This document shows, one piece after another, positions 8,467 through 29,827 of a DNA stretch of 64,000 nt (position 1 is its first letter; each line of letters opens with the position of its first letter). The stretch spans positions 62,001-126,000 of the forward strand of contig NZ_JAIUZY010000007.1 of NCBI RefSeq assembly GCF_020171625.1. Reading direction: 5' to 3'. Origin of the DNA: Salipiger bermudensis. GTDB taxonomy: Bacteria > Pseudomonadota > Alphaproteobacteria > Rhodobacterales > Rhodobacteraceae. Below the pieces are notes generated by a model, which worked only from the letters and a program-made list of their open reading frames with translations, had not been told where the DNA came from and ran no database searches. The position numbers were made by a program, and so were the translations under genes.

Positions 8467-8468
8467 CG

Positions 8469-13239: not shown

Positions 13240-13249
13240 GGTGAAGACC

Positions 13250-16200
13250 TCAGATAATGGTGGTGGTAAGAGCGCCAGAGACGCTGGATACGATGCTGTT
13301 CGCGCCGACAGCCGCGAAGCGGTATTCGTGCGCCCCCTGCGGCGCCGTGGCGGCGGTCCGCGCGTAGAGAACGACCTCGGTCGCCGAGCCGTCGAAGTCC
13401 GACGTCGCGACGATCTCGAGGCGGTCATTCCCGGAAATGGCCGTTAGACCGAACAGCGTCCGGCCGTCGGCGTCGATCGCGGCTGTCGCGACTGGCGTCC
13501 CGCCTGCCAGCTGAACCGTAATGCTGCCTGCTGTTCGCCCTGAGACCGTGACCGCGCCCCGGTAGGTCGTACCCACCGAAAGGCTCAGCGGCTGCGACAT
13601 CGTGCTGGCCACCCCGGGCGCATGGGTCGCGGCGCCGCCGGAAATCATCCAGCCGCCTCCCGCCGCCCACTCGCCCGGGTCGCCCATGTCTCCGGCGCTC
13701 AGGAGGTCGGCGCGGGTTCGATCGCCGTCCGAGAAGGATGAGGTGACCCCGAGCTCGACCTCGAGATTCTTGATCAGGTCGGTCTTCGCGTCGAACGTGT
13801 CGCCCACCGAGGTTCGGAAGATCAGCACCGTGTCAGTGGCCGGGTCGCCGTTGGCATAGTCGATGCCGGCATATCCCAAACCGGAAGTCAGCAGGATGCT
13901 CTCGATATTGGGCGCGTCCGGAACGGTCTCGGTGTCTGCGACCGCATAGGTCAGGATCGAGCTCGTACCGCCGGCAGCACCGCCGACGCTGTAGGCCGTC
14001 AACCGAATCTCGATCTCGTCGCCGACCTCGTACTCAAGATCAACCGCCCCCTCGCGACCGTAGATCGTCGCACTGTCCCAGATGACCTCCCCATCGAGGC
14101 GATGCTGTACGAGGATCGAGCCGACCTGAACCGTCTCGGTGTCGGGCATCCGAGCCGAGACCCGCACAGCCCGGACAGTCGGATCTCTGTCCCCCCAACC
14201 GTCGATAATCGACAGGGAAAAGTCGACCGTGTCGTAGATCACGCTCACGCCGGAGAAGACCGGCGCGTTGGGCAGTCCCCCGGTGAGGATCGAGCCGACG
14301 ATCGGGTTCCAGTCCGGCGGCACGTAGGCATCGGTGAGCGCGTCAATCTCCTCTGCGTCGTTGGTGAGCGTGAGCCGGCAGGAGAAGTTCTCGCCTGGCT
14401 CGATCAGAAGCACCCGGCACGGGAAGCTGACCTCTTCTGACGGGCCGAAGAGGACAAGATCCCCCGGCGCCGGCAGCGCATCACCCTGCACCAGGAGCGC
14501 CTGTGTCGTGCCAGGGGCCGTTGTGACGGTCGCGATAGCACTGTCGCCCACCGTGTTCGCCTCATCATAGGCCATCCAGCGCAACGCGTAGCTCTGGCCG
14601 GCTTCCATCGTAACCGGCTCGTCGATCACCACGCGCGAGCCATCGACGGTCAGAACCTTGCCCGAGACCTGCACCGAGGACAGCACGTCATGCGACAGGA
14701 GTACCTTGTCTCCGCGCGTGGCGGCTCGGATAGCCCCCTCCTGCATGACGCGAAAGGTGTCACGCCGCTGGATCACCTCCTGCATGCGCCGATAGGTCTC
14801 GCGCGCCACCTCGTCGGGATCAGTCTTTCCCGGCATCTCCCACTCTTCGAGCAGGTCGATCGCGCCCTCATTGCCCGGCCACGGATGGATCAGCTCGGCC
14901 TCGCTGTAGTTGTTGGTCTCATCGAGGAAACGGACGCGAATGCCATCCGGCGGCTTGATGTAGCTACGCTCTCCCTCGAAGCCCCAGCTGTTGCGCGGGG
15001 AGATGTGGTCGACGACAACGTCCTGCGGTCGGTCGATCACGACACCCCACTTCTCACCATCATGGCGCGGGGATGCCCGGCCCGCCGCAGCGATCTCCGC
15101 CAGCATTTCGCCGAAGCTCATCTGCGAGGTGATCGTGGCGTCGTAGCGAAGCCCCTTCTGGTCGCAGAACAGCCACCACTCCTCGAGCATGTCCCAGTCG
15201 ATCTCGGCGTCTGGGACAGGTCGCGCCTGATAGGCACCGCGCAGCGCATCAGCGAAGATGTCGGCCGGGTTACGGCTCAGCGCCTCGGCCCATGTGTCGA
15301 CCCCGTCGAAGGCATGGACGTAGCGCTCGACGAGGGCGTTTAGGCGCGAGATCGTCCCGTTGATCTGCTCGGTTGCCTTGACCCGGGCCTCGACAAGGGC
15401 CAGCGGCGCCGCATCGAAGTTGATCGGGTATTCCGGTCGGATCGACTGGAATGCGAAGAGAGTGGTGGCATCGCGGAACCGCGCGGCAGTCAGCGACTCG
15501 GACAGCCTGGTGATCTCAACCTCCCACGACCCGCGCGATGGTAGTGACCATCGGAACTGCCGGAAGAACGGGGTGATCGTCCTCTCCGAGTAGGTGACCT
15601 CTTGAACCTCATCCCACTCCGTTGCGCCGCTCTCGCGCTGACGAATTCGCAGCCGCACCGACCGACCATCCGGGTCGCCGTCGCTGTCGATCCTCGTCAG
15701 GCCCTGCGGGAAATGCACGATGATCGACGCCTCGGTGGCGTTCGCGCAGGTCTCATAGACACTCGTCTGCAGCTCTGCCGGATCGCCTGTCGGGTTCCCG
15801 TACTCATCCAGCGGCTCCTGCGGCCCCTTGAGCTCGACGTTGACGTTCTCCTCGAACACCTGCTGCGTCACGATCTCCATCGGGTCATCGCCAACAACAC
15901 CCTCCCGCGTGCGGTAGAGCACGTTGGTGAACTCGTCGATCGACGTGTCGCCGATCCGGATGTCTGAGATCTTCAGCCGGCCATAGCCGAAGGTGAAGGC
16001 GGCGCAGACGTACTGCTCGCCGTTGATGATCTGGCTGTAGGGCAACGCGGCATAGACAGGCGCCATGCGCTTCTTGCCGAGCACCAGCGGGATCGGCTTG
16101 CCCGCGGGCAGATCGTTGCTCCAACCGTTGATCGAATAGCGGCTCTCCGGACCGTCAGGCGAGTTGAGGGACGGACGCGGGATCAGGGCATTCATTGCCG

Positions 16201-16585
16201 CACCGATCAGCAGCGTCGTAGCGACGGCAGTCCCGACCCAAATCGCGTTCAGAGCGAACGCTCCCAAGCTCGCGCCTGTGGCAAAGTAGAAGGACGTCCC
16301 GATGGCGCTCGACACCCACGTGGCGATGGAGATGGGATCCCCCTCCACCACGCGGATGATGACCGTGGTACCGGGGTGCGGGCGCACGTTCCCCCACCAG
16401 TCGCGCGGTATGATTTGGAATTTCCCATCGCGGCTGATCGCGACCCGGGTCCGGCTCAGCACCGCCTCGGACGCGCCGGGCAGCTGCGCCGCGACGATCT
16501 CGGCAACGGTCACGGTCGCCGCAAGGTCGAAACTCTTACGCGCCTCGGGCGCGACACCGCGCGTGATCAGAACAGGGATGGTCAA
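13250..16585 (-). CDS. Tail-tip / host-specificity protein J-like (TipJ family)
   Basis: 1111 aa from a TTG that overlaps the upstream stop (TTGA), with GAGG nearby. An N-terminal beta-grasp-like region (ISRDGKFQIIPRDWWG) precedes a short hydrophobic stretch (FYFATGASLGAFALNAIW) and the conserved TipJ core (GKPIPLVLGKKRMAPVYAAL). Later fibronectin-like segments follow. The family forms the distal tail hub that contacts the host surface. It sits between the NlpC/P60 gene and the fibre, as in lambdoid K-J order. Confidence 0.85.
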   Translation of the reverse strand: MTIPVLITRGVAPEARKSFDLAATVTVAEIVAAQLPGASEAVLSRTRVAISRDGKFQIIPRDWWGNVRPHPGTTVIIRVVEGDPISIATWVSSAIGTSFYFATGASLGAFALNAIWVGTAVATTLLIGAAMNALIPRPSLNSPDGPESRYSINGWSNDLPAGKPIPLVLGKKRMAPVYAALPYSQIINGEQYVCAAFTFGYGRLKISDIRIGDTSIDEFTNVLYRTREGVVGDDPMEIVTQQVFEENVNVELKGPQEPLDEYGNPTGDPAELQTSVYETCANATEASIIVHFPQGLTRIDSDGDPDGRSVRLRIRQRESGATEWDEVQEVTYSERTITPFFRQFRWSLPSRGSWEVEITRLSESLTAARFRDATTLFAFQSIRPEYPINFDAAPLALVEARVKATEQINGTISRLNALVERYVHAFDGVDTWAEALSRNPADIFADALRGAYQARPVPDAEIDWDMLEEWWLFCDQKGLRYDATITSQMSFGEMLAEIAAAGRASPRHDGEKWGVVIDRPQDVVVDHISPRNSWGFEGERSYIKPPDGIRVRFLDETNNYSEAELIHPWPGNEGAIDLLEEWEMPGKTDPDEVARETYRRMQEVIQRRDTFRVMQEGAIRAATRGDKVLLSHDVLSSVQVSGKVLTVDGSRVVIDEPVTMEAGQSYALRWMAYDEANTVGDSAIATVTTAPGTTQALLVQGDALPAPGDLVLFGPSEEVSFPCRVLLIEPGENFSCRLTLTNDAEEIDALTDAYVPPDWNPIVGSILTGGLPNAPVFSGVSVIYDTVDFSLSIIDGWGDRDPTVRAVRVSARMPDTETVQVGSILVQHRLDGEVIWDSATIYGREGAVDLEYEVGDEIEIRLTAYSVGGAAGGTSSILTYAVADTETVPDAPNIESILLTSGLGYAGIDYANGDPATDTVLIFRTSVGDTFDAKTDLIKNLEVELGVTSSFSDGDRTRADLLSAGDMGDPGEWAAGGGWMISGGAATHAPGVASTMSQPLSLSVGTTYRGAVTVSGRTAGSITVQLAGGTPVATAAIDADGRTLFGLTAISGNDRLEIVATSDFDGSATEVVLYARTAATAPQGAHEYRFAAVGANSIVSSVSGALTTTII

Positions 16586-16983
16586 AGCATGGCCTCGTGT
16601 CGGTGGGCGCGGACGAAACGGTCGCGCCACATGGGGTCTTTGCGCGACACGATCACCGCGCTGGATCTGGCGTGGACGTGCAGCATTCGCGTCCGGTCCA
16701 CCGCCACGGCGACGTGGCAGTCGTGCCGACCGACGCGGAACACCAGCGCATCGTAGGGCTGGATCTGATCGACCGGCGCCCACGGCCCGGCCATAGACTC
16801 CCCGGCCACCATAGCGGCCAGGCGGGCGTGCTCTGCGCAGGTGGCATAGCCCTCGGTGAAGCTCGGCAGGTCGATCCCGAGATCCTCGGCGTACACGAGG
16901 CGAAGAAGCCCGTAGCAGTCGACCCCGGCGCGGTCCCGACCGAGATCCGCATGAGGCAGGCCAACGAAGTCAGACCAGCTCAA
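16582..16983 (-). CDS. NlpC/P60 family tail peptidase
   Basis: 133 aa. The NlpC/P60 catalytic Cys is in GVDCYGLLRLVY at about residue 23. The paired His lies in CHVAVAVDRTRMLHVHAR at about residues 89-104. These papain-like enzymes at the tail tip cut peptidoglycan cross-bridges during DNA entry. ATGA overlap upstream and TTGA overlap downstream show tight coupling with the neighbouring tail genes. Confidence 0.85.
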   Translation of the reverse strand: MSWSDFVGLPHADLGRDRAGVDCYGLLRLVYAEDLGIDLPSFTEGYATCAEHARLAAMVAGESMAGPWAPVDQIQPYDALVFRVGRHDCHVAVAVDRTRMLHVHARSSAVIVSRKDPMWRDRFVRAHRHEAML

Positions 16984-17510
16984 CGGTAGAGCCCCGGGAA
17001 ACGGTGCTTTCCGACGACATGCATCGGCGCCCCCTCATCCTCGATCGGCTCGCGGCTCATCTGGACTGCGATTTGAGATCCGAACCGGGCGGTGACGACC
17101 TCGAGACCGAGCCAGGCTTGCTCTACCAAGTTAGGTGTCGACGCCATGACCACCGCCGCGTTTGCCTTCGCGCGGGTCTCGAAGCTCCGCAAAAGAGCCG
17201 GAAGCGTGGCGTCGAAGAGGTCGATGACGATGCGCATCTGCGCCGGCACGTCGTCTTCGTCGCCTGGCATCTCGAGGCCCATCGGAACCCACAGGAAGAA
17301 CTCATTCTCCTGGTTTGCCCCGCGCCAGCTCGAGCGCGTGCCGCGGATCTGCGCCTCTGCGCTCTGCGAGATCAGATCAGCGTTGTCGCTGCTCAGGCGA
17401 ACAGGCGCGTCGAGATCAGGGTGCGAGACCTCTAGAAGCACGACAGGAAGGTCATCGGCGAATGCAGCGTCCTGCTGCGCCCGCGCGTTCAGCGAAAGGA
17501 CGCGGCTCAT
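16980..17510 (-). CDS. DUF1833 family tail protein
   Basis: 176 aa starting MSRVLSLNARAQQDAAFADD. The pattern VVLLEVSHPDLDAPVRLSSD matches DUF1833 proteins, found just upstream of the tail NlpC peptidase in many phages and gene transfer agents. Role probably structural at the tail tip. ATGA overlaps on both sides. Confidence 0.7.
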   Translation of the reverse strand: MSRVLSLNARAQQDAAFADDLPVVLLEVSHPDLDAPVRLSSDNADLISQSAEAQIRGTRSSWRGANQENEFFLWVPMGLEMPGDEDDVPAQMRIVIDLFDATLPALLRSFETRAKANAAVVMASTPNLVEQAWLGLEVVTARFGSQIAVQMSREPIEDEGAPMHVVGKHRFPGLYR

Positions 17511-17935
17511 GTGGGTAGCTCCACAACGGAGAAGCTTACGACTTGCCGGCGCAGGACCGGGTTCGCCGCGACGGGTGGCGCATCGCCCCACTGGCACAGC
17601 ATCATCTTCGCAGTGAGCAGCGGCGCGTCGTTCTCATCAAGGAGAGAAAGGCCGGCCTCGTCCAAAAGAAACGCGCCGTCGACCGCATAGTCCGGCATCC
17701 AGAAAAGACGGGAGCCCTCTGCGCAATCATCGATGTAAAACCGGTCGAACTTTGCCTTCTGCCAAAGTTCAAGAAGCACCTCCAATTGAACGGTCCGGGC
17801 GACCGCAGAATAGCGGCGCGAAACCTTCGGCGGCCCAGCATCGAAACTCGACTGACGCCGCCCATCCATGCGCTGCGATCGATAGCCCGAGAAACGAGGC
17901 GCAGGCAGATCTGCCGGGAATGTGGGGATCGTCAT
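17507..17935 (-). CDS. Hypothetical tail protein
   Basis: 142 aa, MTIPTFPADLPAPRFSGYRS, with an aromatic-rich centre (LELWQKAKFDRFYIDDCAEG). Located between the tape measure and DUF1833 genes and overlapping both by 4 nt. By position it corresponds to a distal-tail or minor tail protein; I recognise no domain. Confidence 0.6.
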   Translation of the reverse strand: MTIPTFPADLPAPRFSGYRSQRMDGRRQSSFDAGPPKVSRRYSAVARTVQLEVLLELWQKAKFDRFYIDDCAEGSRLFWMPDYAVDGAFLLDEAGLSLLDENDAPLLTAKMMLCQWGDAPPVAANPVLRRQVVSFSVVELPT

Positions 17936-20115
17936 CGGCGGGGCCTCGGAGCTGCTGCGCCACGCGACTGCAGGAACCTCTTGCCAGGAGCTTGGCTGAG
18001 CGCCTGCACGGCCTCCTCAGACACACTGATTCGCGCCGAGACCTGCCCGCCATCCTGGACCCGCTCCACGTTCACGAAGCCCGCGGCCTCATTGATGATC
18101 GGCATGTTGACCACCGGCGCCGCTCCACCGATCTGGTGGTTTGGCACGACAAAGCCAGACGAGCCCGGAACCATCACCTCCGGCCCCCGCTCACCGACCA
18201 CGTAGGCACGGCCCGCTGACACCGGCCCACCTGCGGCGCGGAAGCCACCGAAGACAGCCCGCAGGATGCCTCCGAACCCGCCGCCACCCGAAAGCCCGCT
18301 GAACAAGCTGGTGAAAATGTCCGAGACCCCGGACGAGATAAAGTCGCTCGCGATCCGCTGGAATACCCCGCGCATCGCCTCCCCGAAGTCTTGGCCCTGC
18401 GTGATCGCCCCGGACACAGCGCTGCCAATGTCGTCGAAAATGCCCGACACGCTTTGGCTGCCACTTTGCACAGCCTCGCCAGCCGCATCCGTGACCTGCT
18501 TTGCCGCACCGGCGGCGGCGTGCGCCGCCGCCTGGGCGTTGCCGGCGATGCCAATACCCAGACCAGACATGAGATCCGCGCCGATCTTCATGAACTCACG
18601 TGACGGCGATCGCGTGTCAGTCTCATCGCGGACAGCATCGATCGCACCGCGTGCGACATTCCGCCCCGCCGACGAAACCTTCGACCGGCCACCAAGAAGG
18701 CCCTCGACTAGACCGTCGATGATGTCGGACCCAGCCTGTCTCGCGGACTCCCAAACACGTCCTGGGATCGCCTTGATCCATTCGATCAGGCTGGTCACAA
18801 GCTCGTCTATCGCGCCGCCCACCGAGGCGATCTTTTCGCGAATGCCGGCGCAAATGGCCGAGATGATATCCCGCCCGGTCTGCACGGTATCTGTGAAAAC
18901 CCGCGTGACGGTTTCGACGACGCCGGGGAAAGTGTCGCGGATGTAGGAAACGAAGGTGTCGGTGATCCGCTGCGAGGCCTCCAGCGCGCCCTTAAAATCA
19001 CCCCGCATGAGCGCAGCGAAGACCTCGATATAGCTCACGGCGATGTCGAAGGCGGCTTTTCCGGTGTTGCTGAATACTTCCCAGACGCGTTTGGCCACTG
19101 AGCCGACCGTATCGAGGGCGGTCTGCAGGAACGGATATTTCTCGACCAAACTGTCCCACTTGAGCGCGACATAGGCCACTGCGCCGGCGACGGCGCCGAA
19201 CGCCAAAACAGCAAGACCGATCGGCGAGGCGAGAGCCGCGAGACCGGTGGCAACAAAGCCAAGCGCCACCGCCATCGGACCGATCGCGACGGCAGCAGCC
19301 CCGACTGATGCCACGAAGGACTTCATGCGCGGCGACAATCCCGAGAACCACTCAGCGACATTGGCGATGCCTTCTGAGATCGACCTGAGCGCTGGCGCGA
19401 GCGCAACCGCCATCTGGTTGCCGAGCCCCTTGGTGACGAGCCCCAGCGCGCTCATCGCGTCGTTGGCCTCTTCGATCTTGTCCGCATCGACATCAGAAAC
19501 GGACACGCCGAAGCGCTCGATTTCATCGGTCGCCTTGTCGATCGTGGCGGCGTCCAGGCGCAGCATCGCTAGACCGGTCTTGTCACCGAAGACCTGAGAG
19601 GCGACCGCGGCCTGCTCTGCCGCCGGCACCACCGCCGCGATGCGCTCCTGGATCAGCTTGATGCGCTCGGCCGCATCGAGCTCCGCCAGATCAGCCGCCT
19701 CGATACCGAGCCGCGCAAAGGCTTTCGCCCCAGCACCGGCCCCCTGCTCTGCAAGGCTGATCCGGCGGGTCATGCGGCGCAACGACCCCTCCAGATCACC
19801 CTGCGAAATGCCGGCCATATCGGCAGCGCGGGTCAGTGCCTGGATGCTGCTGGTGGTCGTTCCGAGCGACTGAGCAAATTTCGCCTGCGCGTCGACGGTC
19901 GAAAGCGACGAGCGAACGAGAAGACCGGTTGCGGCCACAAAAGGCGCAGTAACACGGGTGGACATCGTCTTGCCCACCTTACGCATGTGCCCCGCCGCCT
20001 TCGTCAGAGAGCGCTGTAGGCCATTCATGCTGGCCTGCGCGCGCTTGGCACCTTTTTCGAACGCCGCGCTATCGAGGCTGAGGAGGGCGCGCAGCGCGCC
20101 GATTTCAACTGCCAT
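17932..20115 (-). CDS. Phage tail tape measure protein
   Basis: 727 aa. The N-terminal third is coiled coil (AFEKGAKRAQASMNGLQRSL). A hydrophobic block at about residues 270-325 (ASVGAAAVAIGPMAVALGFV) is the usual membrane-active part. The Ala/Gly-rich C-terminus ends with YVVGERGPEVMVPGSSG, a signature of tape measure proteins. It sets tail length and is ejected with DNA. Start at 20115 overlaps the end of the chaperone frameshift product by 11 nt. Confidence 0.9.
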   Translation of the reverse strand: MAVEIGALRALLSLDSAAFEKGAKRAQASMNGLQRSLTKAAGHMRKVGKTMSTRVTAPFVAATGLLVRSSLSTVDAQAKFAQSLGTTTSSIQALTRAADMAGISQGDLEGSLRRMTRRISLAEQGAGAGAKAFARLGIEAADLAELDAAERIKLIQERIAAVVPAAEQAAVASQVFGDKTGLAMLRLDAATIDKATDEIERFGVSVSDVDADKIEEANDAMSALGLVTKGLGNQMAVALAPALRSISEGIANVAEWFSGLSPRMKSFVASVGAAAVAIGPMAVALGFVATGLAALASPIGLAVLAFGAVAGAVAYVALKWDSLVEKYPFLQTALDTVGSVAKRVWEVFSNTGKAAFDIAVSYIEVFAALMRGDFKGALEASQRITDTFVSYIRDTFPGVVETVTRVFTDTVQTGRDIISAICAGIREKIASVGGAIDELVTSLIEWIKAIPGRVWESARQAGSDIIDGLVEGLLGGRSKVSSAGRNVARGAIDAVRDETDTRSPSREFMKIGADLMSGLGIGIAGNAQAAAHAAAGAAKQVTDAAGEAVQSGSQSVSGIFDDIGSAVSGAITQGQDFGEAMRGVFQRIASDFISSGVSDIFTSLFSGLSGGGGFGGILRAVFGGFRAAGGPVSAGRAYVVGERGPEVMVPGSSGFVVPNHQIGGAAPVVNMPIINEAAGFVNVERVQDGGQVSARISVSEEAVQALSQAPGKRFLQSRGAAAPRPRR

Positions 20116-20730
20116 TTGCCGCCTTTCCGCTCACCGCACGCATCCAGGCACGCGCCTCAACGAGATCCGCCTCGCGGTTCTCGCCCTCTTGGCGCTCAAA
20201 GCCCGGCCTATCCGGCATGTCGTTTGGTTGGTGCACCGCGAAGCGGTGGTATTGCGCAGCCTGCCAGGCAAGGCGCGCATCACGGAGGGACGCAGCCTCG
20301 ATGATCAGCTGCGCCTCTCGCATCGTGGTATTGGCCCACTGCTCGGGATCCCGCCCTGCCAGCGCCCACGCTCGAAGATGGGCAGCCCAGTCTACTTCGA
20401 CCGGGCTGCCCTCTTCGCGTTTTTTCCTGCGCCACCATTCTTGGATTCGGGGAAAGCCGCTTCTGCAACCTCGCCGAGAAGCTCACCGGCCCCTTCTACG
20501 CCAAGGCCGTCGACAAGTTCCGCAGCCGCGTCGAGGTCGACCCCTTTGCCGTCGTCTGCGCATTCCGCGACGATCTTGACGAGGTCGCCGATGCGGAAGC
20601 CATCTTCGAGGTCACGCATCACGTCGACGATGCCCTTCCCGTAGATGTCCTCGATCGCCATCATGGCACGCGTCGTCATTCGGAAGGTCCGCGATCCACC
20701 GCCGATTTGCTTCGTGACACCACTGATCAT
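20105..20730 (-). CDS. Tail assembly chaperone GT, -1 frameshift fusion
   Basis: Reading the upstream chaperone frame to AAC at 20421-20419 and slipping back one base gives an open continuation to 20105. The result is 208 aa: 104 residues of G, then REEGSPVEVDWAAHLRAW and on to the C-terminus. The downstream frame is coding-like well upstream of its first ATG (20323), which shows that the ATG is not its real start. This matches the G/GT arrangement just before the tape measure in siphoviruses, where GT recruits tube subunits to the tape measure. Slippery site and hairpin are annotated separately. Confidence 0.85.
20380..20425 (-). promoter_or_regulatory. Programmed -1 ribosomal frameshift signal
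   Basis: On the minus strand the heptamer A AAA AAC (20425-20419) is in the correct X XXY YYZ phase of the G frame. A 7-nt spacer (GCGAAGA) follows, then a stem-loop: GGGCAGCCCGGTC (20411-20399) pairs with GACTGGGCTGCCC (20392-20380) through 13 pairs including one G-U, around a 6-nt loop. Slippery heptamer, spacer and stimulator all have canonical form. Confidence 0.9.
20392..20730 (-). CDS. Tail assembly chaperone G (unshifted product)
   Basis: 112 aa, MISGVTKQIGGGSRTFRMTT, with an acidic helical body (GDLVKIVAECADDGKGVDLD) similar in layout to gene transfer agent gp10 and lambda G proteins. Most ribosomes should stop at TAG 20394-20392, which lies in the loop of the downstream hairpin. ATGA overlap with the tail tube gene. 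Confidence 0.8.
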   Translation of the reverse strand: MISGVTKQIGGGSRTFRMTTRAMMAIEDIYGKGIVDVMRDLEDGFRIGDLVKIVAECADDGKGVDLDAAAELVDGLGVEGAGELLGEVAEAAFPESKNGGAGKNAKRAARSK

Positions 20731-21167
20731 GCGACGGTTGCCTCGGTGAAGGTCGGCGCACCGCTGGTACGCACCACCAGGTTCATGCCGATGATGGCAC
20801 CGACCTCGTTCTGCTCCAACTGCGGGACCACGTAGCCGGTGAATTCGAAGATGTCTCCGGTTGTCTGCCCCCCTTCGAGCGGCATGGTGGTCCGGAAATA
20901 GACCAACGTGCCGGCGGCCATGTAGCCGTGCGCGGCAGCATAGCCGGCGCTCGAGTAGCCGCAGGGTATCGTGATCGAGCCCGCATCCTTCAGGCCTGCG
21001 ACATATTCACGATAACCGCCCGGGCTCTGAAAATGCGTGGCATCTTGGTACTCGACTTCGACGGTCGGCACCCCGAGGCCCTTACACTCGGGCACGTTCT
21101 CCAAGTTGTTGCCGTCGGTGCCCCATTCGGTGGTGGCACCGTAGACAATACGCTGCTTTGTCGCCAT
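20727..21167 (-). CDS. Major tail tube protein
   Basis: 146 aa, MATKQRIVYGATTEWGTDGN, preceded by AAGGAGTGATCGCC. Central Gly/Tyr-rich beta region (CGYSSAGYAAAHGYMAAGTL). Position just upstream of the tail chaperone and after the connector genes fits the tail tube subunit of lambda V/GTA type. Confidence 0.8.
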   Translation of the reverse strand: MATKQRIVYGATTEWGTDGNNLENVPECKGLGVPTVEVEYQDATHFQSPGGYREYVAGLKDAGSITIPCGYSSAGYAAAHGYMAAGTLVYFRTTMPLEGGQTTGDIFEFTGYVVPQLEQNEVGAIIGMNLVVRTSGAPTFTEATVA

Positions 21168-21215
21168 GGCGATCACTCCTTTTCAGCGTTGGATGAATGC
21201 CGGTCGCCCGGCGGT

Positions 21216-21569
21216 TTAGTCGCGGTGCCAGACCGCGAACGTCAGGGAGACACGCTGCAGAAGCTGCGTATCTTCCGTGAACCCGTCGCGGGTCGCCTCA
21301 AGGAATGCTCCTTGGATCGGCCCGCCGCGGTAACCTTCAAGCACCGCCCGGATTTCAGCCTCGGCGGCATGGGCGTCTTCGACCGTCGCGCCGTAGCAGT
21401 CGATCTGCACACGCGTCTGCATCAGCCCCTTGCCTTGCAGGTGCATGTCGCGCACGCCGCTGGTCCGGTAGATCGAGGCCCGGGGCAGCCCGACGCCATC
21501 GCCGAGAGAGCCCCATGCGATGGTGAAGCTAACTGCGCCCGAGAGCAGTGAGTAAAGGTGCTCTTCCAT
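21216..21569 (-). CDS. DUF3168-type tail completion protein
   Basis: 117 aa, MEEHLYSLLSGAVSFTIAWG. The DUF3168 pattern is visible: QGKGLMQTRVQIDCYGATVE then EIRAVLEGYRGG and a terminal LTFAVWHRD. These proteins cap or terminate the tail tube. ATG overlaps the upstream stop (TGATG). Confidence 0.75.
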   Translation of the reverse strand: MEEHLYSLLSGAVSFTIAWGSLGDGVGLPRASIYRTSGVRDMHLQGKGLMQTRVQIDCYGATVEDAHAAEAEIRAVLEGYRGGPIQGAFLEATRDGFTEDTQLLQRVSLTFAVWHRD

Positions 21570-21802
21570 CAGCAGACCGGATTCAGGCCGTGCCGGTTGA
21601 GCACGGCGAACAAGGAAGGGCCGGCCATGCACTCGAAAGCCTGCCGTTCTGCGTATACCTGGATGCCATCGTCAAGGGCCGCGACTAGTTCGATCCGGAG
21701 CGCTTCGATCTTGCCAGCGGGCCAACCCCGCACGGCCTCGGCCACATATTCGACCAAAGCGTCGAGATCTGTCATATCGATTTTCATCTCGAAGCAGGCC
21801 AT
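21569..21802 (-). CDS. Hypothetical phage protein
   Basis: 77 aa, MACFEMKIDMTDLDALVEYV, mostly helical, with Cys near both ends. Start at 21802 overlaps the upstream stop (TAATG). An in-frame ATG five codons in is an alternative. Lies among head-tail joining genes; function not recognised. Confidence 0.5.
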   Translation of the reverse strand: MACFEMKIDMTDLDALVEYVAEAVRGWPAGKIEALRIELVAALDDGIQVYAERQAFECMAGPSLFAVLNRHGLNPVC

Positions 21803-22014
21803 TAAGCGGCGACCACCGCGATATGGCCGTCGACCCGACGGTGCTGAATGGAACCCTCGACAACGAGGATATCGCCCGTCTGGTCTCGGTCTATGACAAT
21901 GGCGTATCCGGATTCATCATCAGCTTCGACAACGTCCTTGATTTCGACACCATCACACAATACGCGCACCGGCTTGCCGGCGAGACACGTGTTCTCAGGG
22001 GTGTACTTCGCCAT
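21802..22014 (-). CDS. Small beta-rich phage protein
   Basis: 70 aa, MAKYTPENTCLAGKPVRVLC, with alternating hydrophobic residues suggesting beta strands (SGYAIVIDRDQTGDILVVEG). Four nt downstream of the HK97 gp10-like gene. Structural or accessory; family unknown. Confidence 0.5.
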   Translation of the reverse strand: MAKYTPENTCLAGKPVRVLCDGVEIKDVVEADDESGYAIVIDRDQTGDILVVEGSIQHRRVDGHIAVVAA

Positions 22015-22018
22015 CCCA

Positions 22019-22498
22019 TCAACCCTTCGCCGCCCGCTTCGCGCGGCGCGCTATCGTCTTCTCGATCTCATCCCAGAGCCGAGCGCCGAGACCTTCGAGA
22101 AGACTTTGTTTGTGAATATCCCAAGCCGGCTGAAGCATTGGTTGTGGCGCCACCGACCCGGTGAACCGCCCGTTCTTCTGGAAACGCGGTCCGGTGCCGA
22201 ACTCAACCAGATGCGCATGCGGTGTCCCATTTGCGCCCCCAGGAGACCCGACGAACATATTGATCACGCTGCGACCCCGCTTTGCGTAGCTATCGCCCAG
22301 CTGCCCGGCAGCAATGCGAGAGGTGATCTGAAAGACATCATCACGCGATCCCGGCCAGAACGCGTTCGCGGTGTCGGCAATCGGCTTCAGCTCTTTCTTC
22401 ATCGCCCTGCGCGCCACCCCCTTTGCAGTCCCTGCTGGAAGTTGAGCAAGGGCCTTTTCAATCTCCCGGAATCCCGTCAATTTGAGCGACACTGACAT
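22019..22498 (-). CDS. HK97 gp10-like head-tail/tail completion protein
   Basis: 159 aa, MSVSLKLTGFREIEKALAQL. The HK97 gp10 hallmarks are present: an N-terminal GF.EIEKAL.QLP segment, AHLVEFGTGPRFQKNGRFTG near residue 100, and PMLQPAWDIHK toward the C-terminus. It terminates or joins the tail. Opposite-strand gene 22536-22838 interrupts the cluster immediately upstream. Confidence 0.8.
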   Translation of the reverse strand: MSVSLKLTGFREIEKALAQLPAGTAKGVARRAMKKELKPIADTANAFWPGSRDDVFQITSRIAAGQLGDSYAKRGRSVINMFVGSPGGANGTPHAHLVEFGTGPRFQKNGRFTGSVAPQPMLQPAWDIHKQSLLEGLGARLWDEIEKTIARRAKRAAKG

Positions 22499-22535
22499 CT
22501 GGACCACCCTCGATTAAGATTGGGATTTTTCGTTT

Positions 22536-22838
22536 ATGACCGAACCGAAGAAGCAAAGCCTCGTTGATGAAGCTCGCGCTGATAACGCCGAAAGAGATCT
22601 GCTGATAGAAACCTACAAGGAAAGCACCGGCCTAACCTGGCTTTGGTCTCTACTCTTCGGACCAATCTATTTCTGGGTGCATGGATTCGTCGGAATGGGC
22701 TTTATCGTGCTCATCGTCAGCATTGCCACCTTCGGCATTGGCATCTTGGCGGCGCCTTTCCTAGCGTATTACGCTTGGAGAAAACGCGCAGAGAAAAAGG
22801 CCTCGAACATGGTCGCAGTATCAAAGTTGCGCCGCTAG
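22536..22838 (+). CDS. Small membrane protein, inserted moron
   Basis: 100 aa on the strand opposite to all surrounding head genes. A charged N-terminus (MTEPKKQSLVDEARADNAER) is followed by hydrophobic segments at about residues 33-52 (WLWSLLFGPIYFWVHGF) and 54-80 (GFIVLIVSIATFGIGILAAP), then a basic tail. Base composition is visibly more AT-rich than its neighbours. It has its own short upstream gap with AT-rich sequence. The layout is that of a moron expressed from the lysogen, for example in superinfection exclusion; that role is inferred. Confidence 0.65.
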   Translation: MTEPKKQSLVDEARADNAERDLLIETYKESTGLTWLWSLLFGPIYFWVHGFVGMGFIVLIVSIATFGIGILAAPFLAYYAWRKRAEKKASNMVAVSKLRR

Positions 22839-23251
22839 GCGACCACCATCCCCTCAACCGTGAGATAGACCCACTCTCGGTCGGTGATGGCGTCCACCTC
22901 TTTCACATCCCACCGGTTGCCCGGCAGAGCGTCACCGCCAACACCGTCGGGCAGCCCGCGGCGCACATCGCGCATCCGGTAGGCCGTGGTGATCGCCCGC
23001 GTGGCAGCGCTGGACCGGACTTTGATCTTGAAGACATGGCGCCCCGCGAGGCGCGCGGCTTGAACAGCCTCATTGCCGCTCTGGTAGATCCACTGAGCCC
23101 GGCAAGCGTGGCGTTCCTCCCACGCGAACGTCGTGCCGCCGAGGCTGCCGGTGGTGCCGACGTTCTCGTCGAAGGCGACAGCTTCTCGCAAGTTGCCCGC
23201 CGGCCCCTTGAGGCGCGTCTCATCCCGCCGCCCGATCACACGCGCACCCAC
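22835..23251 (-). CDS. Head closure (head-tail joining) protein
   Basis: 138 aa from a GTG start inside the end of the connector gene. It has the SPP1 gp16/Phage_H_T_join pattern: VIGRRDETRLKGP, a central WIYQSGNEAVQAARL, and VFKIKVRSSAATRAI. Closes the packaged head and docks the tail. Its last codons overlap the 3' end of the opposite-strand moron by 4 nt. Confidence 0.7.
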   Translation of the reverse strand: MGARVIGRRDETRLKGPAGNLREAVAFDENVGTTGSLGGTTFAWEERHACRAQWIYQSGNEAVQAARLAGRHVFKIKVRSSAATRAITTAYRMRDVRRGLPDGVGGDALPGNRWDVKEVDAITDREWVYLTVEGMVVA

Positions 23252-23796
23252 CGGTAGGGTGAGATCAGCCGATCATAGAAGGGCGCCGAAACAGAGACCC
23301 CTTCGCGCTCAACGTACTGGTGCGCGACCATCTGCATAATCGCGACCTTGAGTGCCTGCGGCACCGCATCGGCGCCACCGAACCCGCAGACGAAATCCAC
23401 CCGGATCGCCGCGATCGAATCCGATGCGAGCGCGGGAAGGCCCCAGTTCTTCGGCAAGACCACCCGCGTACCTGCCGCAACAGGCGCGAGCTTGACCTCG
23501 GGTCCCAACTGCACCTCGCCGTCCGCATTCTCGTAGGAGATCGCGACCGAAGACACATCCGGCACCGGCAGAACGAAATCGCGCGACCAAGCATCGAGAA
23601 CAAGACGCCATGTCTGATCCACAATCGCCCTCCCGAGAATGCCCCGGAAGCCGTCGAGGTGCGACACGCTCGCTTTGATCATCGTCTCGATAAGCGCATT
23701 GTCCTCATCGTGCTCCACGATCGCGTGAGCCTTGCACTCCGCGGCTGTCACCGGCAACTCTAACGGCGCCTCGATCAGGGTTGGCCGAAATGTCAC
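23236..23796 (-). CDS. Head-tail connector protein (gp6-like)
   Basis: 186 aa from GTG. Typical gp6/YqbG start: LPVTAAECKAHAIVEHDEDN then ALIETMIKASVSHLDGFRG. It ends with AIMQMVAHQYVEREGVS, the helical part that contacts the portal ring. GTGA overlap with the upstream gene. Confidence 0.8.
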   Translation of the reverse strand: MTFRPTLIEAPLELPVTAAECKAHAIVEHDEDNALIETMIKASVSHLDGFRGILGRAIVDQTWRLVLDAWSRDFVLPVPDVSSVAISYENADGEVQLGPEVKLAPVAAGTRVVLPKNWGLPALASDSIAAIRVDFVCGFGGADAVPQALKVAIMQMVAHQYVEREGVSVSAPFYDRLISPYRWVRV

Positions 23797-23987
23797 TGGT
23801 CGGCCTTGTTGCTGGGCACCTGCCGCGCCTTGTTCTTGGCAGCGGGCTCAGCTTTCTTCTGCGGCTTCGCCTGCGCGAGAACGCCGCGCTCAACGAGGTG
23901 CGCAACATCCGCCTCGCGCGCCTCGCGCTCATCGCCTTCATCATACCATTTGTCGCCCTGATGCGGGCGCAGGACCGTGAACTTCAT
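23793..23987 (-). CDS. Small charged head-region protein
   Basis: 64 aa: MKFTVLRPHQGDKWYDEGDE, then a Lys/Ala-rich C-terminus (KPQKKAEPAAKNKARQ). Similar short proteins follow capsid genes in GTA-like clusters. Function unknown. Confidence 0.5.
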   Translation of the reverse strand: MKFTVLRPHQGDKWYDEGDEREAREADVAHLVERGVLAQAKPQKKAEPAAKNKARQVPSNKADQ

Positions 23988-24052
23988 GGCTCAATCCTCC
24001 ATCGGCTTACTGAGAGGGCGGGGAAGCCCGCCCTCCTGAGAAAACCGAAGCC

Positions 24053-25255
24053 TTATGCGACGAAGCCGAGGTCGCCGTAGATGAAGGCCTCGGGGCGGTA
24101 GACCGCCAGGGCGAGGCGCTCCTCGGCGAGCAACGTCACCATGTTGCGGGTGAAATCGTCGTTGACGTAGCCCGCCTCGACGCGCGCGTCCCAGCGATCG
24201 AAGATCTGGGCGCCGAGCTTGAAGGCGCCGGTCAGGAACTTGTCGACACCCATCGCTTGCGTCGCCACCACCGGAAGGTTCCAGAGGGTCGGCGAGAGCG
24301 TGCCCTGCGGGTTACCGATGATGTAACGCCCCTCCGAATCCTTGGTCAGCTCGATGCGCGCCCAGTCGACCGGGTTCATCACGTGACCGGTCGCCGGATA
24401 CTCGGCCAGCGCCGCCTGCAGCATGGCCAGGCGCATGGTGTCGATGGCCGTCGCGGCCGCCGGCGCGAAGGGCTCCGAGTAGGCCGTAGCGTTGGTGATG
24501 AGACCCGAAAGGTTCTGGCCGGTGCCGTCACCGTTCAGCAGCTGATTTTCTTCGGCGTAGGAGAGGCCATAGATCAGGCGCTGGTCGATCATCGAACGCA
24601 GGAAGGACACGTCATCGAGCGCCTGCCGGCTTGCCTTCATCCAGTGCGCGATCACCTTGGCGGTCGAGCTCTTCAGGTCGAGCTGGATGTCGGACGACGG
24701 CTTGGCACTGCCCTCCGCGACGGGCGCGGCGTTGTTGTTGAAGCCGGTTTCCTGCACGTATTCGATGGTGTTGCCGTCCATGCGGCCCTGCGAGAGAAGA
24801 TCGCGCACGGTCATGCGGCGCTGCGCCTGCTCCTGCACGCCCGGAAGGCGGGTCGGCGCGGCGCCGTCGCCGACCGAGCCATCGGCATCGGTGGTGAGCG
24901 TGGTGAGGTCTGCTTTGACCCGCAGATCGGCCTTGCCGCTGCTCGGACCGCTTTCGAGCCAGGCCTTGACCCGCTCGTCCTCGACGAAGCGCTGGCCCAG
25001 CGACTTGCGCTCCTCCTGGTCACCATCGCCGCGGCGCGCCATCTTCTGCTCGAGCTCGGTCATCTGGCCGGTGAGCTCGTTCATCTTCAGAAGCGCTTCG
25101 TCGGCGGTTTCCTTGATCTTGGAGGTCAGCTCTTCGCCGGACTTGGCCTTGCCAAGCGCCTCTTCCGCAATCTCCTTGACCGCGTTGATCGACTTCTCGT
25201 GCGCAGCTTTCATCTCGGCGGCAAGCTGCTCCGCCGTTTTCTTATCTCCCGACAT
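24053..25255 (-). CDS. Major capsid protein, HK97 family
   Basis: 400 aa. The first ~100 residues are a coiled-coil delta/scaffold domain (AEEALGKAKSGEELTSKIKE). The mature HK97 fold follows, with RRMTVRDLLSQGRMDGNTIE, VAHWMKASRQALDDV-like E-loop/spine region and LLNGDGTGQNLSGLI. The prohead protease gene is directly upstream and should remove the delta domain. AGGTTCCC precedes the ATG. Confidence 0.95.
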   Translation of the reverse strand: MSGDKKTAEQLAAEMKAAHEKSINAVKEIAEEALGKAKSGEELTSKIKETADEALLKMNELTGQMTELEQKMARRGDGDQEERKSLGQRFVEDERVKAWLESGPSSGKADLRVKADLTTLTTDADGSVGDGAAPTRLPGVQEQAQRRMTVRDLLSQGRMDGNTIEYVQETGFNNNAAPVAEGSAKPSSDIQLDLKSSTAKVIAHWMKASRQALDDVSFLRSMIDQRLIYGLSYAEENQLLNGDGTGQNLSGLITNATAYSEPFAPAAATAIDTMRLAMLQAALAEYPATGHVMNPVDWARIELTKDSEGRYIIGNPQGTLSPTLWNLPVVATQAMGVDKFLTGAFKLGAQIFDRWDARVEAGYVNDDFTRNMVTLLAEERLALAVYRPEAFIYGDLGFVA

Positions 25256-25284
25256 GGGAACCTCCGATTTTTAGGGGTTGGCCT

Positions 25285-25962
25285 TCAGGCCGTCATGGCG
25301 CGCAGGAATGCGAGCCCGTCATCCGCTTCAGCAGGTTCCCCCTGCCCTTTCAGGTGGACGCGCGCGGCACGCTCCGCCTGCGAGTTCGAGAGCCCCAAGG
25401 ACCCCTTGAGCAGCTGCTCGAACTCGCGCTCAGTCAGCCGGTCCCCGGCCTTGAGCTTTTCCGTGATCTCGTGAACCGCCTTCGCCGCCTTGACGCTGGC
25501 GATGGTGGCGTTCTCGTTGGCACCGATCGAGACCACCGACACCTCGAGCAGGTCGAGCTTCTCCAGCGTCCAGACATGGGTATCGGTATCGACCGAATAC
25601 TCGCGGATCCGGTAGCCGATCGACAGCCCGTCGATGTCGCCTTCCTTGAGGAGCGCATAGGCCTCCTTCGCCTGCTGCACTCCCATGTTCAGCTTTCCGA
25701 CCATCAACAGGCCATGATCGTCCTCTTCGGCCTCCAGCCACTTGCCGATCGGGCGGCTGGCGTCGTGCTGCCAGAACATCTTCGGCATCGTGCCCTTTGC
25801 CCGGTGATCAGCGAGGCTTTCCATAAACGCGCCGGCCGCCACGACATCGCCATAGCTGTCCGGCTCACCGCCGAAGGTCGAGCCGTACCCCTCGAACTCG
25901 CCGGTCTCCTTCAGCGCCTTGATCTCGAGGATCGGGTTGGCAACCTTATTGATCGGGTCCAT
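25285..25962 (-). CDS. HK97-family prohead protease
   Basis: 225 aa from ATG 25962 with GGAGACTGGCG before it, overlapping the portal 3' end by 17 nt. Family features: FEGYGSTFGGEPDSYGDVVA, the catalytic His in FWQHDASRPIGKW, and the catalytic Ser in GLSIGYRI. A C-terminal segment continues beyond the protease core and may act as scaffold. Matures the capsid protein encoded next. Confidence 0.9.
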   Translation of the reverse strand: MDPINKVANPILEIKALKETGEFEGYGSTFGGEPDSYGDVVAAGAFMESLADHRAKGTMPKMFWQHDASRPIGKWLEAEEDDHGLLMVGKLNMGVQQAKEAYALLKEGDIDGLSIGYRIREYSVDTDTHVWTLEKLDLLEVSVVSIGANENATIASVKAAKAVHEITEKLKAGDRLTEREFEQLLKGSLGLSNSQAERAARVHLKGQGEPAEADDGLAFLRAMTA

Positions 25963-27175
25963 CGCCAGTCTCCATGTTCGAACCTGCTTCGGTGATCGGC
26001 ACGTTCTGCATCTGCAGCCGCGGCACATCTCCGCCCGCGACCGGGCTGAGGTTCTCCCGCTGGCGAACCTCGTTGATCGTCAGCCAGCCGTTGCTCAGAC
26101 CGGACTGGTAGAAGGTCGAGCGGCTGGCGCTGTCACCGCGCAGCAGCCCCTCGATGTTGAACTCGACGTACATGCCCCGCGCCCGCTCCGCTGCCGTGAG
26201 CAGCTGCTTGTTGACCGCCTGCTCGATCCTCTTGAGGCGGCGGCGCAGGGTGAACTTCTGGAAGGCCAGCGTCTGCTGCTCGAGGCCGGTTCCCCAACTG
26301 CTGCTCTTCTCGGTGTGACCCACCATGTGCGGCGGCACTCCGAAGAACCGGCAGACCTCTTCCACCGAGAAGCGGCGGCTCTCCAGCATCTGCGCGTCTT
26401 CCGGGTTGATCGTGAATGGCACCCACTGTGTGTCACCCTCGAGCACCATCGGGCGGCCGGCGTTCTGCGCACCGATGAACTTCTCCGCGAGCCTGGTCTC
26501 AGCAAGCTCGCGCTGCTCGGGCGTCAGCCAATCCTTGAACTTCAGCCCCCCGGACGGGCGCAAACCGTTCTTGAACGTCGTGGCCGCGGAACGGTCGACC
26601 GCCCGCGCCAGTCCGAACGCCTGCCGCCCGAAATGCAGCGTCGACATGCCGCCGAGGGGATTCCCGCCGAATCCCCGGATGTGCAGCACCTCTGTATCTG
26701 TTCGGACGTGCGACTGGCCGCGCTCGGTCCAGCGATACTCCAGCGCGCCATCGCTCCGGCGGCGAACCGAGACGAGGTCGGGCCGGATCGGCACGAGCGC
26801 GCCCAACTTCCCCTGGCTATCCAGGTCTTTCGCCGCATAGGCATTGCCCCAGAGCTCCAGCGAAGCCGCGATGAACTCCCAGAAGTCGAGCGCCGTCTGA
26901 TCATAGTTCGGGCTGTCGTGCAGCAGCCGGAAGAGCGGATGCCCCCGCTCCACCACCCGACCGTCCTGCCCTGCGCTGTAAACCATCATCGGCAGCGATC
27001 CGATGGTGCCTGCGAGCAGGTTGGTGCAAGCCCAGACAGCCGACAGACCGAGTACAGTGCTGTCGCTGACAACCTCTCCGCTGTCGGTCGCCTGCGCCGA
27101 GGGGCGCCAGGTCTCGGCCTCGGTGAGGGAGACCGGACGAACGAGTGCCGACTTGATCCATTGCTTCAGTTTCAA
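25946..27175 (-). CDS. Portal protein, HK97 family
   Basis: 409 aa. Starts at a TTG overlapping the terminase stop (TTGA), with GGAGGCCGCGAC upstream. Hallmarks: AVWACTNLLAGTIGSLPMMV, HPLFRLLHDSPN, LELWGNAYAA, and the C-terminal VCRFFGVPPHMVGHTEKSSS. Forms the dodecameric DNA gate and docks the terminase. Confidence 0.95.
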   Translation of the reverse strand: MKLKQWIKSALVRPVSLTEAETWRPSAQATDSGEVVSDSTVLGLSAVWACTNLLAGTIGSLPMMVYSAGQDGRVVERGHPLFRLLHDSPNYDQTALDFWEFIAASLELWGNAYAAKDLDSQGKLGALVPIRPDLVSVRRRSDGALEYRWTERGQSHVRTDTEVLHIRGFGGNPLGGMSTLHFGRQAFGLARAVDRSAATTFKNGLRPSGGLKFKDWLTPEQRELAETRLAEKFIGAQNAGRPMVLEGDTQWVPFTINPEDAQMLESRRFSVEEVCRFFGVPPHMVGHTEKSSSWGTGLEQQTLAFQKFTLRRRLKRIEQAVNKQLLTAAERARGMYVEFNIEGLLRGDSASRSTFYQSGLSNGWLTINEVRQRENLSPVAGGDVPRLQMQNVPITEAGSNMETGDGPDQ

Positions 27176-28890
27176 GTCGCGGCCTCCAATGCGGCGAAGT
27201 AATCGTTGATGCGACCATCGTCGCTCGGGACCGGGTTCCAGCTCATCAGCATGACCGCGTTAAACATCGCCATGAGCGGGTCGATCTTCGCGCTGCCGCT
27301 TTGCGCCTTGGTCACGATAACTGCGTTCCCGCGCGCCTCTGTCTTCGCGTTGCCAACGCACCAGGTCATGAGCCTCTGGCCACTGTGGACCATGCTGCCG
27401 TTCTTGAGCTTCACCGGCGCGGTCTTGATCGCTGCGTTCAGCTTGTAGCCCTGGCTGATTGCGCGGATGTCGTCGATCGCGAACCCCTCTGCGACCAGAT
27501 CATCAATGATCGAGCCGACGCCCTCAGGGTCCATGCCGATCCCGTCCTGCGAGGGAAACAGTCCGGCATCCCTGATCCTCGCGCAGATCTCGACGATCTC
27601 CGGGTTCGCCTCCTCCTCGATGTTGTCGACGAGGATCAGCTCTCCGGCGGCCTCGAGGGCCTCCAGCTCGGGCGCGATCTGCTTTCGGAGCGTGAGCACG
27701 TCCCGATCCGCCCAAGCGCGGCCCCAGCCTTGCCAGCGACTCGTCTCGGCGTGGCGCCCCAGCACATAGAGCCCGAGGAGGTCGTCGAGACCTCCACCGT
27801 CGACGCCGACGACGCAGACCTCCGAGGTCGCGAGGATCTGCTCGAAATCGATCTCTTTGCGCTCGGCCTTCGCCCAGTAGTCGGCGCCGACCCAGCGGCC
27901 TGATTTCAGGCCAAGCCCGATCTGCACGTTCAGGTGCTGGCTGGCGAACAGCGCCAGCGCCTCGGGCCCGCCCTCTTCCGCCTTGCGCATCTCACGCTGC
28001 AGGTACTCGCGCGACACCGAGCGCTCGAGGTTCGGGTTGACCATGCCCCAGGTCTTCGGATCCCGCCACTTCTCGGCCTCGGCCATCTTCGTCGGCAGCT
28101 CGTAGAGGATGGCAAGCATTGGGAAATCGAGCTTGCCGTCGCGGACCGCGCGCGCGGTCTCGAGCTCTTTCTCCCACTGCCCGGTCGGCCGGTCCTTCGA
28201 CTGGGTCGTGATCTGCAGCAGAAACCCCTCGGGCCTCGAAGCGAGCCCGCCGCGAAGCTCGACGAAGATGTCCGGGGCCTTCTGCTTCGTCCCGAGAACG
28301 TGGGTCTCATCGACCAGGATGAACGTGCCCTTCGAGCCGGTGACCACGTCACCGTCTGCCGACAGGATCATGATGACCGCGCCGGTGACGTGGTGGGTGA
28401 TTTCCTTCTGGTGGTTCTGCACCCGAAAGAGCCGCACCAGGTCCTCGTCGAGCGCGATCATGTTCTTCGCCTGCTTGAACGCGATGCCGGCGATCTTCTG
28501 AGTCGGCGCGATCAGCAGCAGCTCGGCTTGCGGGCGCTCGTTCATGATCGCCGCGGTGACGATGATCGCCGCCGCGATCGCCGACTTCCCGTTCTTCTTC
28601 GGCACCAGCAGGAAAAACTCCTGCAGCATGCGCTTCTTCAGCTCGGGGTCGTAGCTCCCGAAGATGACCCTCACCAGGTCGAAGACCCATTCCTCGCAGA
28701 CCTCGCCATAGGTCGGCGTGCCGATCAGGTCCGGCACCCGGAGCCGCTTGAAGATCCGAAGCGCCTTGTCCGCGACTGCGTCGAAGAGCGGCAGGTCCGG
28801 GATCAGCGAGCGACCCTCGACGATCCGCTGCTCCCAGTCCGGAATCGCGGTCGACCATGCGTCGTCGAGAAAGCCTGCGCCGCCGTCCAT
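27172..28890 (-). CDS. Terminase large subunit
   Basis: 572 aa. The ATPase domain has Walker A VPKKNGKSAIA at about residue 98 and Walker B FILVDETHVL near residue 190. The C-terminal RNase H-like nuclease has VVGVDGGGLDDLLG at about residue 355. Cuts and pumps DNA into proheads. The WSTAIPDWEQRIVEGRSLIP start resembles phiC31/HK97-type terminases that make cohesive ends, but the end type cannot be settled from sequence alone. Confidence 0.95.
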   Translation of the reverse strand: MDGGAGFLDDAWSTAIPDWEQRIVEGRSLIPDLPLFDAVADKALRIFKRLRVPDLIGTPTYGEVCEEWVFDLVRVIFGSYDPELKKRMLQEFFLLVPKKNGKSAIAAAIIVTAAIMNERPQAELLLIAPTQKIAGIAFKQAKNMIALDEDLVRLFRVQNHQKEITHHVTGAVIMILSADGDVVTGSKGTFILVDETHVLGTKQKAPDIFVELRGGLASRPEGFLLQITTQSKDRPTGQWEKELETARAVRDGKLDFPMLAILYELPTKMAEAEKWRDPKTWGMVNPNLERSVSREYLQREMRKAEEGGPEALALFASQHLNVQIGLGLKSGRWVGADYWAKAERKEIDFEQILATSEVCVVGVDGGGLDDLLGLYVLGRHAETSRWQGWGRAWADRDVLTLRKQIAPELEALEAAGELILVDNIEEEANPEIVEICARIRDAGLFPSQDGIGMDPEGVGSIIDDLVAEGFAIDDIRAISQGYKLNAAIKTAPVKLKNGSMVHSGQRLMTWCVGNAKTEARGNAVIVTKAQSGSAKIDPLMAMFNAVMLMSWNPVPSDDGRINDYFAALEAAT

Positions 28891-29438: not shown

Positions 29439-29470
29439 CCCCTGAACTTTCGACCGCCCCCCTGCTCGGG

Positions 29471-29827
29471 TCAGGCGAGGCCGCGCTTCTCGAGGCTCTG
29501 CTTGGTCCGGTCGTGCCAGACCTTGCTGACCGCCTGCAGGTTCTTCGGATCCCAGAAGAGCTTCGGGTCCCCGCGATGCGGCTTGATGTGGTCGACCACC
29601 GGGCTGTGCGGCGCCGGGTAGACGCCAACCAACAGCACGCCGGTCTGCCGACAGGTGAACTGATCGCGCTCGAGGATCTCCAACCGGAGCCGCCGCCACC
29701 GCGCGGTGTTCAGCCAGTCCTTCGAGCGCCTGCCGTCGTCGCTCGTCTTCGGAGCAGCGCGGCGCTCGAATCGGGGCTTGGCATGACCCAGCCTTGGCGG
29801 CAGTCCGCGCCCCTTCAGTTTGCCCAT
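29471..29827 (-). CDS. HNH endonuclease, terminase-associated
   Basis: 118 aa, MGKLKGRGLPPRLGHAKPRF. The HNH core is clear: VVDHIKPHRGDPKLFWDPKN then LQAVSKVWHDRTKQSLE, preceded by LEILERDQFTCRQTG. HNH proteins adjacent to HK97-type terminases are needed for specific DNA cleavage at cos, so this is likely part of the packaging machine rather than a homing enzyme. Confidence 0.85.
   Translation of the reverse strand: MGKLKGRGLPPRLGHAKPRFERRAAPKTSDDGRRSKDWLNTARWRRLRLEILERDQFTCRQTGVLLVGVYPAPHSPVVDHIKPHRGDPKLFWDPKNLQAVSKVWHDRTKQSLEKRGLA

Follow-up and report, generated by a model that had tools for sequence, protein, structure and literature searches.

We observe, at the end of the short tail assembly chaperone gene of a Salipiger bermudensis prophage, a slippery heptamer followed by a hairpin, which is conserved in relatives with heptamer swaps and stem covariation, together with a coding −1 frame that crosses the stop of the short gene, in the gene order and protein family of a tail assembly chaperone. 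Because the conservation of the heptamer with its swaps, the stem, the selection on the −1 frame, the family and the gene order all agree, we consider it about 95% probable that a −1 frameshift of the lambda G/GT type makes both a short chaperone and a 208-residue G-T fusion, with the ratio of the two setting tail assembly. Tail chaperones made by frameshifting have long been known as a class, and Xu, Hendrix and Duda reportedly described the lambda-type G/GT frameshift family in 2004. All coordinates below refer to the window, which is the whole stretch of DNA analysed (64,000 nucleotides).

The frameshift signal

The signal lies on the minus strand, within the zero-frame gene that starts at ATG 20730 and ends at a TAG (20394-20392), encoding the G-like short form of the chaperone (112 residues; 20392..20730). 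Codons 102-104 of this frame read GGA AAA AAC, which places the slippery heptamer A AAA AAC (20419..20425) in the right phase for a −1 slip, as the first-pass annotation had claimed. The heptamer is followed by a spacer of 7 nt, GCGAAGA (20412..20418), apparent both from direct reading and from folding, and by a stimulatory hairpin (20380..20411), formed by the 5′ arm GGGCAGCCCGGTC (20411-20399), the loop GAAGTA (20398-20393) and the 3′ arm (20392-20380). Direct reading bears out the spacer of 7 nt, the 13-pair stem with one G-U pair and the loop of 6 nt described in the same annotation. Its statement that the loop holds the zero-frame stop is correct for the TA and incorrect for the G, with which the 3′ arm begins.

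In the free RNA about six further pairs (CGAAGA/TCTTCG, with one bulged A) extend the stem into the spacer, where bases 20417-20412 and 20378-20373 are able to form a lower stem. The 7 nt are therefore the distance to the upper stem. According to the section of PMC4066793 consulted, the stimulatory structure begins 5-8 nt after the heptamer; the 13-bp stem described here begins at 7 nt.

The folding z-score is −7.0 for both the 69-nt and the 38-nt stretches and −5.1 for 101 nt, and none of 200 dinucleotide shuffles at each of these lengths was as stable as the native fold. Among 9,977 windows of 38 nt sampled from the minus strand of the structural module (20 kb), none matched the 38-nt hairpin stretch in stability, and the three most stable all overlap the chaperone hairpin. 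The runner-up spot of the module lies inside the tape measure gene, in 38-nt stretches starting at 18546-18532 (minus strand), which reach −29.6 kcal/mol.

The heptamer is also rare in its phase. From codon use, 0.04 in-phase copies of A AAA AAC are expected in the 16 genes of the module (6,263 codons), and one is observed; the chance that a Lys-Asn pair has this exact spelling is about 0.8% under module codon use. In-phase strings of the general form X XXY YYZ number 15 in the same 16 genes, so that phase alone is insufficient as evidence. A second such string, TTTCCCC, lies within the chaperone gene itself.

Conservation of heptamer and stem in relatives

Loss of the heptamer and stem in otherwise conserved relatives had been named in the first-pass annotation as an outcome that would speak against the frameshift, and the comparison shows the heptamer to be kept in all relatives and the stem core to be kept over 14 aligned sequences. 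Relatives of the short form were collected from a protein database and from viral and genome contigs, and those of the −1 extension from viral contigs. After removal of repeats, the gene end is readable in 23 non-identical relatives, among which near-duplicates remain (L011/L012 and L016/L017); L068, L073 and L074 were retrieved through the T part only. L019, whose sequence stops inside the gene, was left out, as were L003, L005, L007, L022, L064 and L119 (here the same sequence as the window or as another locus) and L053-L061, L065, L066 and L069-L072 (contigs identical to earlier loci).

All 23 relatives carry an in-phase heptamer, which is A AAA AAC in 16, G GGA AAC in six (L016, L017, L018, L068, L074 and L004) and G GGA AAG in one (L073). 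The −1 frame is at least 103 codons long in each of them, and in L015 it reaches the contig end. Several relatives have additional X XXY YYZ strings close by. At the protein level, Lys-Asn is kept in the tail of the short form in 57 of 63 database rows, including the row of the window itself. In the loci of 22 relatives (17,832 codons), in-phase A AAA AAC occurs 15 times, always 9-11 codons before the end of the chaperone gene; when four heptamer types are considered there are 26 matches, 21 at the chaperone gene end and five elsewhere, in a scan that lacks the heptamer of L062, whose gene frame escaped detection.

The stem was evaluated by pair counts in 14 of the 21 aligned sequences, which have equal length. 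L011, L012 and L020 (loop length) and L016, L017, L018 and L068 (G GGA AAC) were excluded from the counts, and L004, L073 and L074 are absent from the alignment. The 10-bp stem core is paired in 95.7% of the cells and the full 13-bp stem in 89.6%, with six core pairs invariant and the upper three stem pairs less conserved; sliding the partner strand by one column lowers core pairing to 61% or 51%. Changes on both sides occur at three core pairs, a number reached by 8 of 500 shuffles, and they include A-U in place of G-C (the window and L021) and U-A (L013). The third is the seventh core pair, which occurs as several pair types, yet is unpaired in 5 of the 14 sequences. The covariation score of the stem was attained by none of 500 shuffles, which ignore relatedness, and the same helix is independently recovered by RNAalifold. 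The stretch is partly coded in two frames; the pairing and covariation figures are supportive, not exact. In a slightly shifted register without the bulge, the lower stem is paired in 78.6% of the cells of the 14 sequences, versus 70% when slid by one column, which is modest support. The relatives with G GGA AAC or G GGA AAG have weaker folds.

The chaperone lineage is rare among sampled genomes: its own genome is the only match at 1e-8 among 385 genomes of the class, and one of two matches at 1e-12 among 394 genomes of the family. In a set of 50,697 phage records the short form has no relative at E 1e-3, and the short form of L016 and the L073 stretch have none at 1e-2. L004 is a second phage-type locus on the contig of the window (at about 32.7k, outside the window). 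Its chaperone is distantly related to that of the window (26% identity), its heptamer is G GGA AAC, and its −1 frame has 122 codons.

The −1 frame and the apparent 72-residue gene

The −1 frame forms a T-like extension on the minus strand (20105..20419), with 104 codons (20419-20108) followed by TGA (20107-20105), and is characterised as such by its openness, by dN below dS ahead of the ATG at 20323 and by a profile link to g10.1 / PF09550 Phage_TAC_6. Residues 1-104 of the short form plus these 104 codons yield the predicted fusion of 208 residues. The first-pass annotation counted 104 codons before the apparent ATG; in fact this is the number from slip to stop, and the ATG is codon 33 of the −1 frame, with 32 codons ahead of it. 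Its total of 208 residues (104 + 104) is right. Its proposal that the apparent stand-alone frame of 72 residues (20105..20323, minus strand) is the C-terminal part of the fusion is supported by the start codon of that frame, whose column in 21 sequences holds ATG in three, TTG in six and neither in 12. As the ATG is not conserved, the 72-residue frame is most likely not a separate gene.

The −1 translation can be aligned over 18 sequences (the window and 17 relatives), with nine invariant residues. Between the stop of the short gene and the ATG, third codon positions differ more across the 21 sequences (0.535) than first (0.336) and second (0.331) positions, and dN is lower than dS in all ten comparisons with a computable dS, out of 11 made between the window and 11 of the 20 other sequences. 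The −1 frame is coding across the stop of the short gene, as in G/GT pairs, and, judged by these substitution patterns, its codons ahead of the ATG are under purifying selection.

Gene order, families and predicted structure

The genes are ordered as tail terminator, major tail (tube) protein (20727..21176, minus strand; phrog_158, E 1.2e-10), chaperone gene and tape measure protein (727 residues; 17932..20115, minus strand; phrog_8462, E 5e-80). The chaperone gene thus sits where G/GT genes typically do, with the major tail protein gene on one side and the tape measure gene on the other. The 112-residue protein matches PF11836 Phage_TAC_11 with 27.8 bits, which just reaches the gathering score of 27.8 (in a six-frame genome search the same place obtained 27.0 bits, under that score), and is also assigned to phrog_2115. 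The −1 part stays below the gathering score of PF09550 Phage_TAC_6, which is unlisted for the window; among the −1 parts of 18 members, two match this family, with a best E of 0.037. The Pfam text for PF11836 reads 'Phage tail tube protein, GTA-gp10'. This description misleads the annotation of 20392-20730 (minus strand), because the gene adjoins a separate major tail protein, which is a place for a tail assembly chaperone.

Searches of PDB sequences with the alignments of both halves gave rows only at E 0.34 and above, and with Foldseek neither half had a PDB match at E 0.001. Against viral models, one of the 360 Foldseek matches of the short form reaches 0.001, and it is an uncharacterised Caulobacter phage protein. 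In structure, the short-form model matches the tail assembly chaperone gp13 of HK97 (PDB 2ob9) at 9% identity, but two other matches score within 1 Z unit of this one, namely a chain of a BREX ATPase (9zdx, 4.0) and a protein that is uncharacterised (5ir0, 4.0). Confidence is low for residues 98-112 of the short-form model, and the model of the T part is weak (pLDDT 71, pTM 0.47). The predicted short-form fold is compatible with a G/GT chaperone, not decisive. The assignment to the siphovirus G/GT chaperones, also made from the first, is upheld by the gene order, PF11836 and phrog_2115, the heptamer with its swaps, the paired stem changes and the selection on the −1 frame.

The structural module is part of a prophage with a likely extent of about 36.7 kb (5256..41934). 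Its ends are marked by two identical 46-bp direct repeats, at 5256-5301 and at 41889-41934, and the second copy is the 3′ end of a tRNA-Val(tac) gene. A tyrosine integrase gene (40805-41842) adjoins the repeat at tRNA-Val(tac), and the repeats are likely the attachment sites of the whole prophage. Within these limits there is also a DNA polymerase III beta-clamp-like gene (37458-38759, plus strand; TIGR00663, E 7.3e-32, below cut-off), with a ParB-like gene nearby (39136-39993).

Alternative explanations

The arrangement could also be read as two genes with no frameshift, the downstream frame starting at ATG 20323 or by re-initiation past the TAG. This ATG is present, nine of the 21 sequences have ATG or TTG in its column, and in the homologous g10/g10.1 pairs the second half apparently starts separately. 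However, the remaining 12 sequences have neither codon, the earliest codon at which the −1 frame could start changes position between relatives, and by eye there is no AGGAGG-like stretch within 25 nt upstream of the ATG. The purifying selection on codons that precede this ATG is likewise at odds with a start there, and separate genes would give the heptamer and the stem no cause to persist, so that we regard two separate genes as very improbable.

Slippage of the RNA polymerase at the run of six A, instead of a ribosomal shift, would use the same slip site. Six A are, however, a short run for polymerase slippage, and seven of the 23 relatives have in the same phase G GGA AAC or G GGA AAG, with three A only. 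The conserved hairpin 3′ of the heptamer and the phase of the heptamer suit simultaneous slippage of two tRNAs, which leaves the transcriptional explanation with a minimal share of the probability. A similarly slight chance is given to the hairpin being chiefly a transcription terminator or a processing site beside an incidental heptamer. A stable palindrome might indeed terminate or stall, yet no T run follows the stem, the same strand continues into the tape measure gene, and the register between heptamer and stem is kept across relatives. In Rfam, the region 19500-21500 has no family at the gathering score, and the lone match up to E 1 (20268-20234, 21 versus 37 bits) falls outside the hairpin. 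On this evidence we rejected a separate start of the 72-residue frame, transcriptional slippage and a terminator hairpin.

Proposed mechanism

With a programmed −1 ribosomal frameshift, the majority of ribosomes would end at the TAG and release the 112-residue short chaperone (G). The hairpin would slow a minority of ribosomes, which would move one base back on A AAA AAC by simultaneous slippage, tRNA-Lys(UUU) from AAA to AAA and tRNA-Asn(GUU) from AAC to AAA. These ribosomes would then read 104 more codons and make the predicted G-T fusion of 208 residues as the minority product. Both tRNAs have one gene each among the tRNAs of the genome, in a survey that contains no tRNA-Tyr and may be incomplete. 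For an HK97-like chaperone cluster, a published assay gave 7% frameshifting, as reported in the part of PMC3711429 consulted.

By analogy with the lambda model, the G part would coat the tape measure protein, tail tube subunits would be recruited by the T part, and the ratio of G to G-T would set tail assembly. In lambda, the short part binds the tape measure, the extension binds the tube protein, and neither is found in the virion (PMC5009743, in the portion available). We infer the slip in the cell, its frequency and this division of labour of the G and T parts.

Comparison with known systems

Unlike lambda G/GT, which has a different heptamer, the signal described here combines A AAA AAC and a hairpin that is strong and simple. 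Lambda G and T were unlisted in the PDB and Pfam searches. The two systems share their layout, with a place before the tape measure gene, a −1 shift shortly before the short gene ends and a long form that is a C-terminal extension (PMC5009743, same portion). The haloarchaeal viruses HCTV-2, -1 and -5 are alike by their description in that portion of PMC5009743, and differ in having archaeal hosts. The phiCbK-like Caulobacter phages are alike in heptamer and gene place. For them the available text of PMC3556154 gives a chaperone frameshift before the tape measure gene at AAAAAAC, or in Colossus at GGGAAAC, and these are also the two main heptamers found here. For phages of Rhodobacter capsulatus, the consulted part of PMC8601537 implies that most have the usual frameshift.

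A description of the chaperone signal of this exact family was not found in the parts of PMC8601537 and PMC11409702 that were available. The signal in the window is a further instance of a known mechanism, the same heptamers being already published for alphaproteobacterial phages. It corrects the annotation, as the 72-residue gene becomes the end of a predicted fusion, and it records the signal for a lineage of phages in which the short form has no match in the phage records at the threshold given above.

Gene transfer agents

A search for PF11836 in 149 genomes of the family gave a match in 112, and 30 high-scoring loci (L023-L052), which are not a random draw, were examined. From their g10/g10.1 arrangement and their frequency we take them as putative gene transfer agents. 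The g10 and g10.1 of the RcGTA type (PF11836 / PF09550) are homologues of both halves of the phage protein: profile-profile comparison gave a probability of 90.8 (E 1.2e-6, 88 columns) between the phage G part and g10, and of 95.5 (E 1.3e-8, 51 columns) between the T part and g10.1, where each E-value refers to one pairwise comparison. PF09550 was found in all 22 g10.1 sequences scanned. The g10 counterpart of L004 and the g10 of the agent have weak matches only in the phage records (two and one records, respectively).

Unlike the phage genes, the agent genes in the loci examined appear to have separate starts and nearly always lack the heptamer. In the last 75 nt of g10, an in-phase X XXY YYZ string is absent in 28 of 29 loci (L043 was left out), on which ground we rejected that the agents also frameshift. 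The exception, L040, has an in-phase GGGGGGC located 3 nt ahead of the g10 stop, with a −1 frame of 73 codons that enters g10.1; it could be a chance G-run or a leftover slip site, and we take it as chance. A putative g10.1 start, defined as the nearest start codon upstream of the DW motif, was found in 25 of the 30 loci, and relative to g10 it is in the −1 frame in 15, in +1 in nine and in 0 in one. In 13 of these 25 loci the g10.1 start overlaps the g10 stop, beginning one base before it. In the putative agents, g10.1 therefore appears to be separately started.

The prophage of the window (A AAA AAC) shares its genome with L004, the phage-type locus that has G GGA AAC, and with L038, an agent-type locus that lacks a heptamer (at about 128.9k on another contig). 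The agents may descend from frameshifting phages and, as host genes, may have lost the frameshift, the fusion being split into separately started and often overlapping g10 and g10.1. We hold the odds of this history to be even, and the loss, including its direction, is proposed from the comparison of these loci. A statement of such a loss was not found in the consulted parts of PMC8601537, PMC11409702, PMC10783043, PMC10299305, PMC10721106, PMC9022992 and PMC3556154. If it is true, the control of the chaperone ratio by frameshifting and by separate starts would be comparable within one cell, and the contrast between phage and agent would offer a testable view of the changes that take place when a host takes over a phage tail module.
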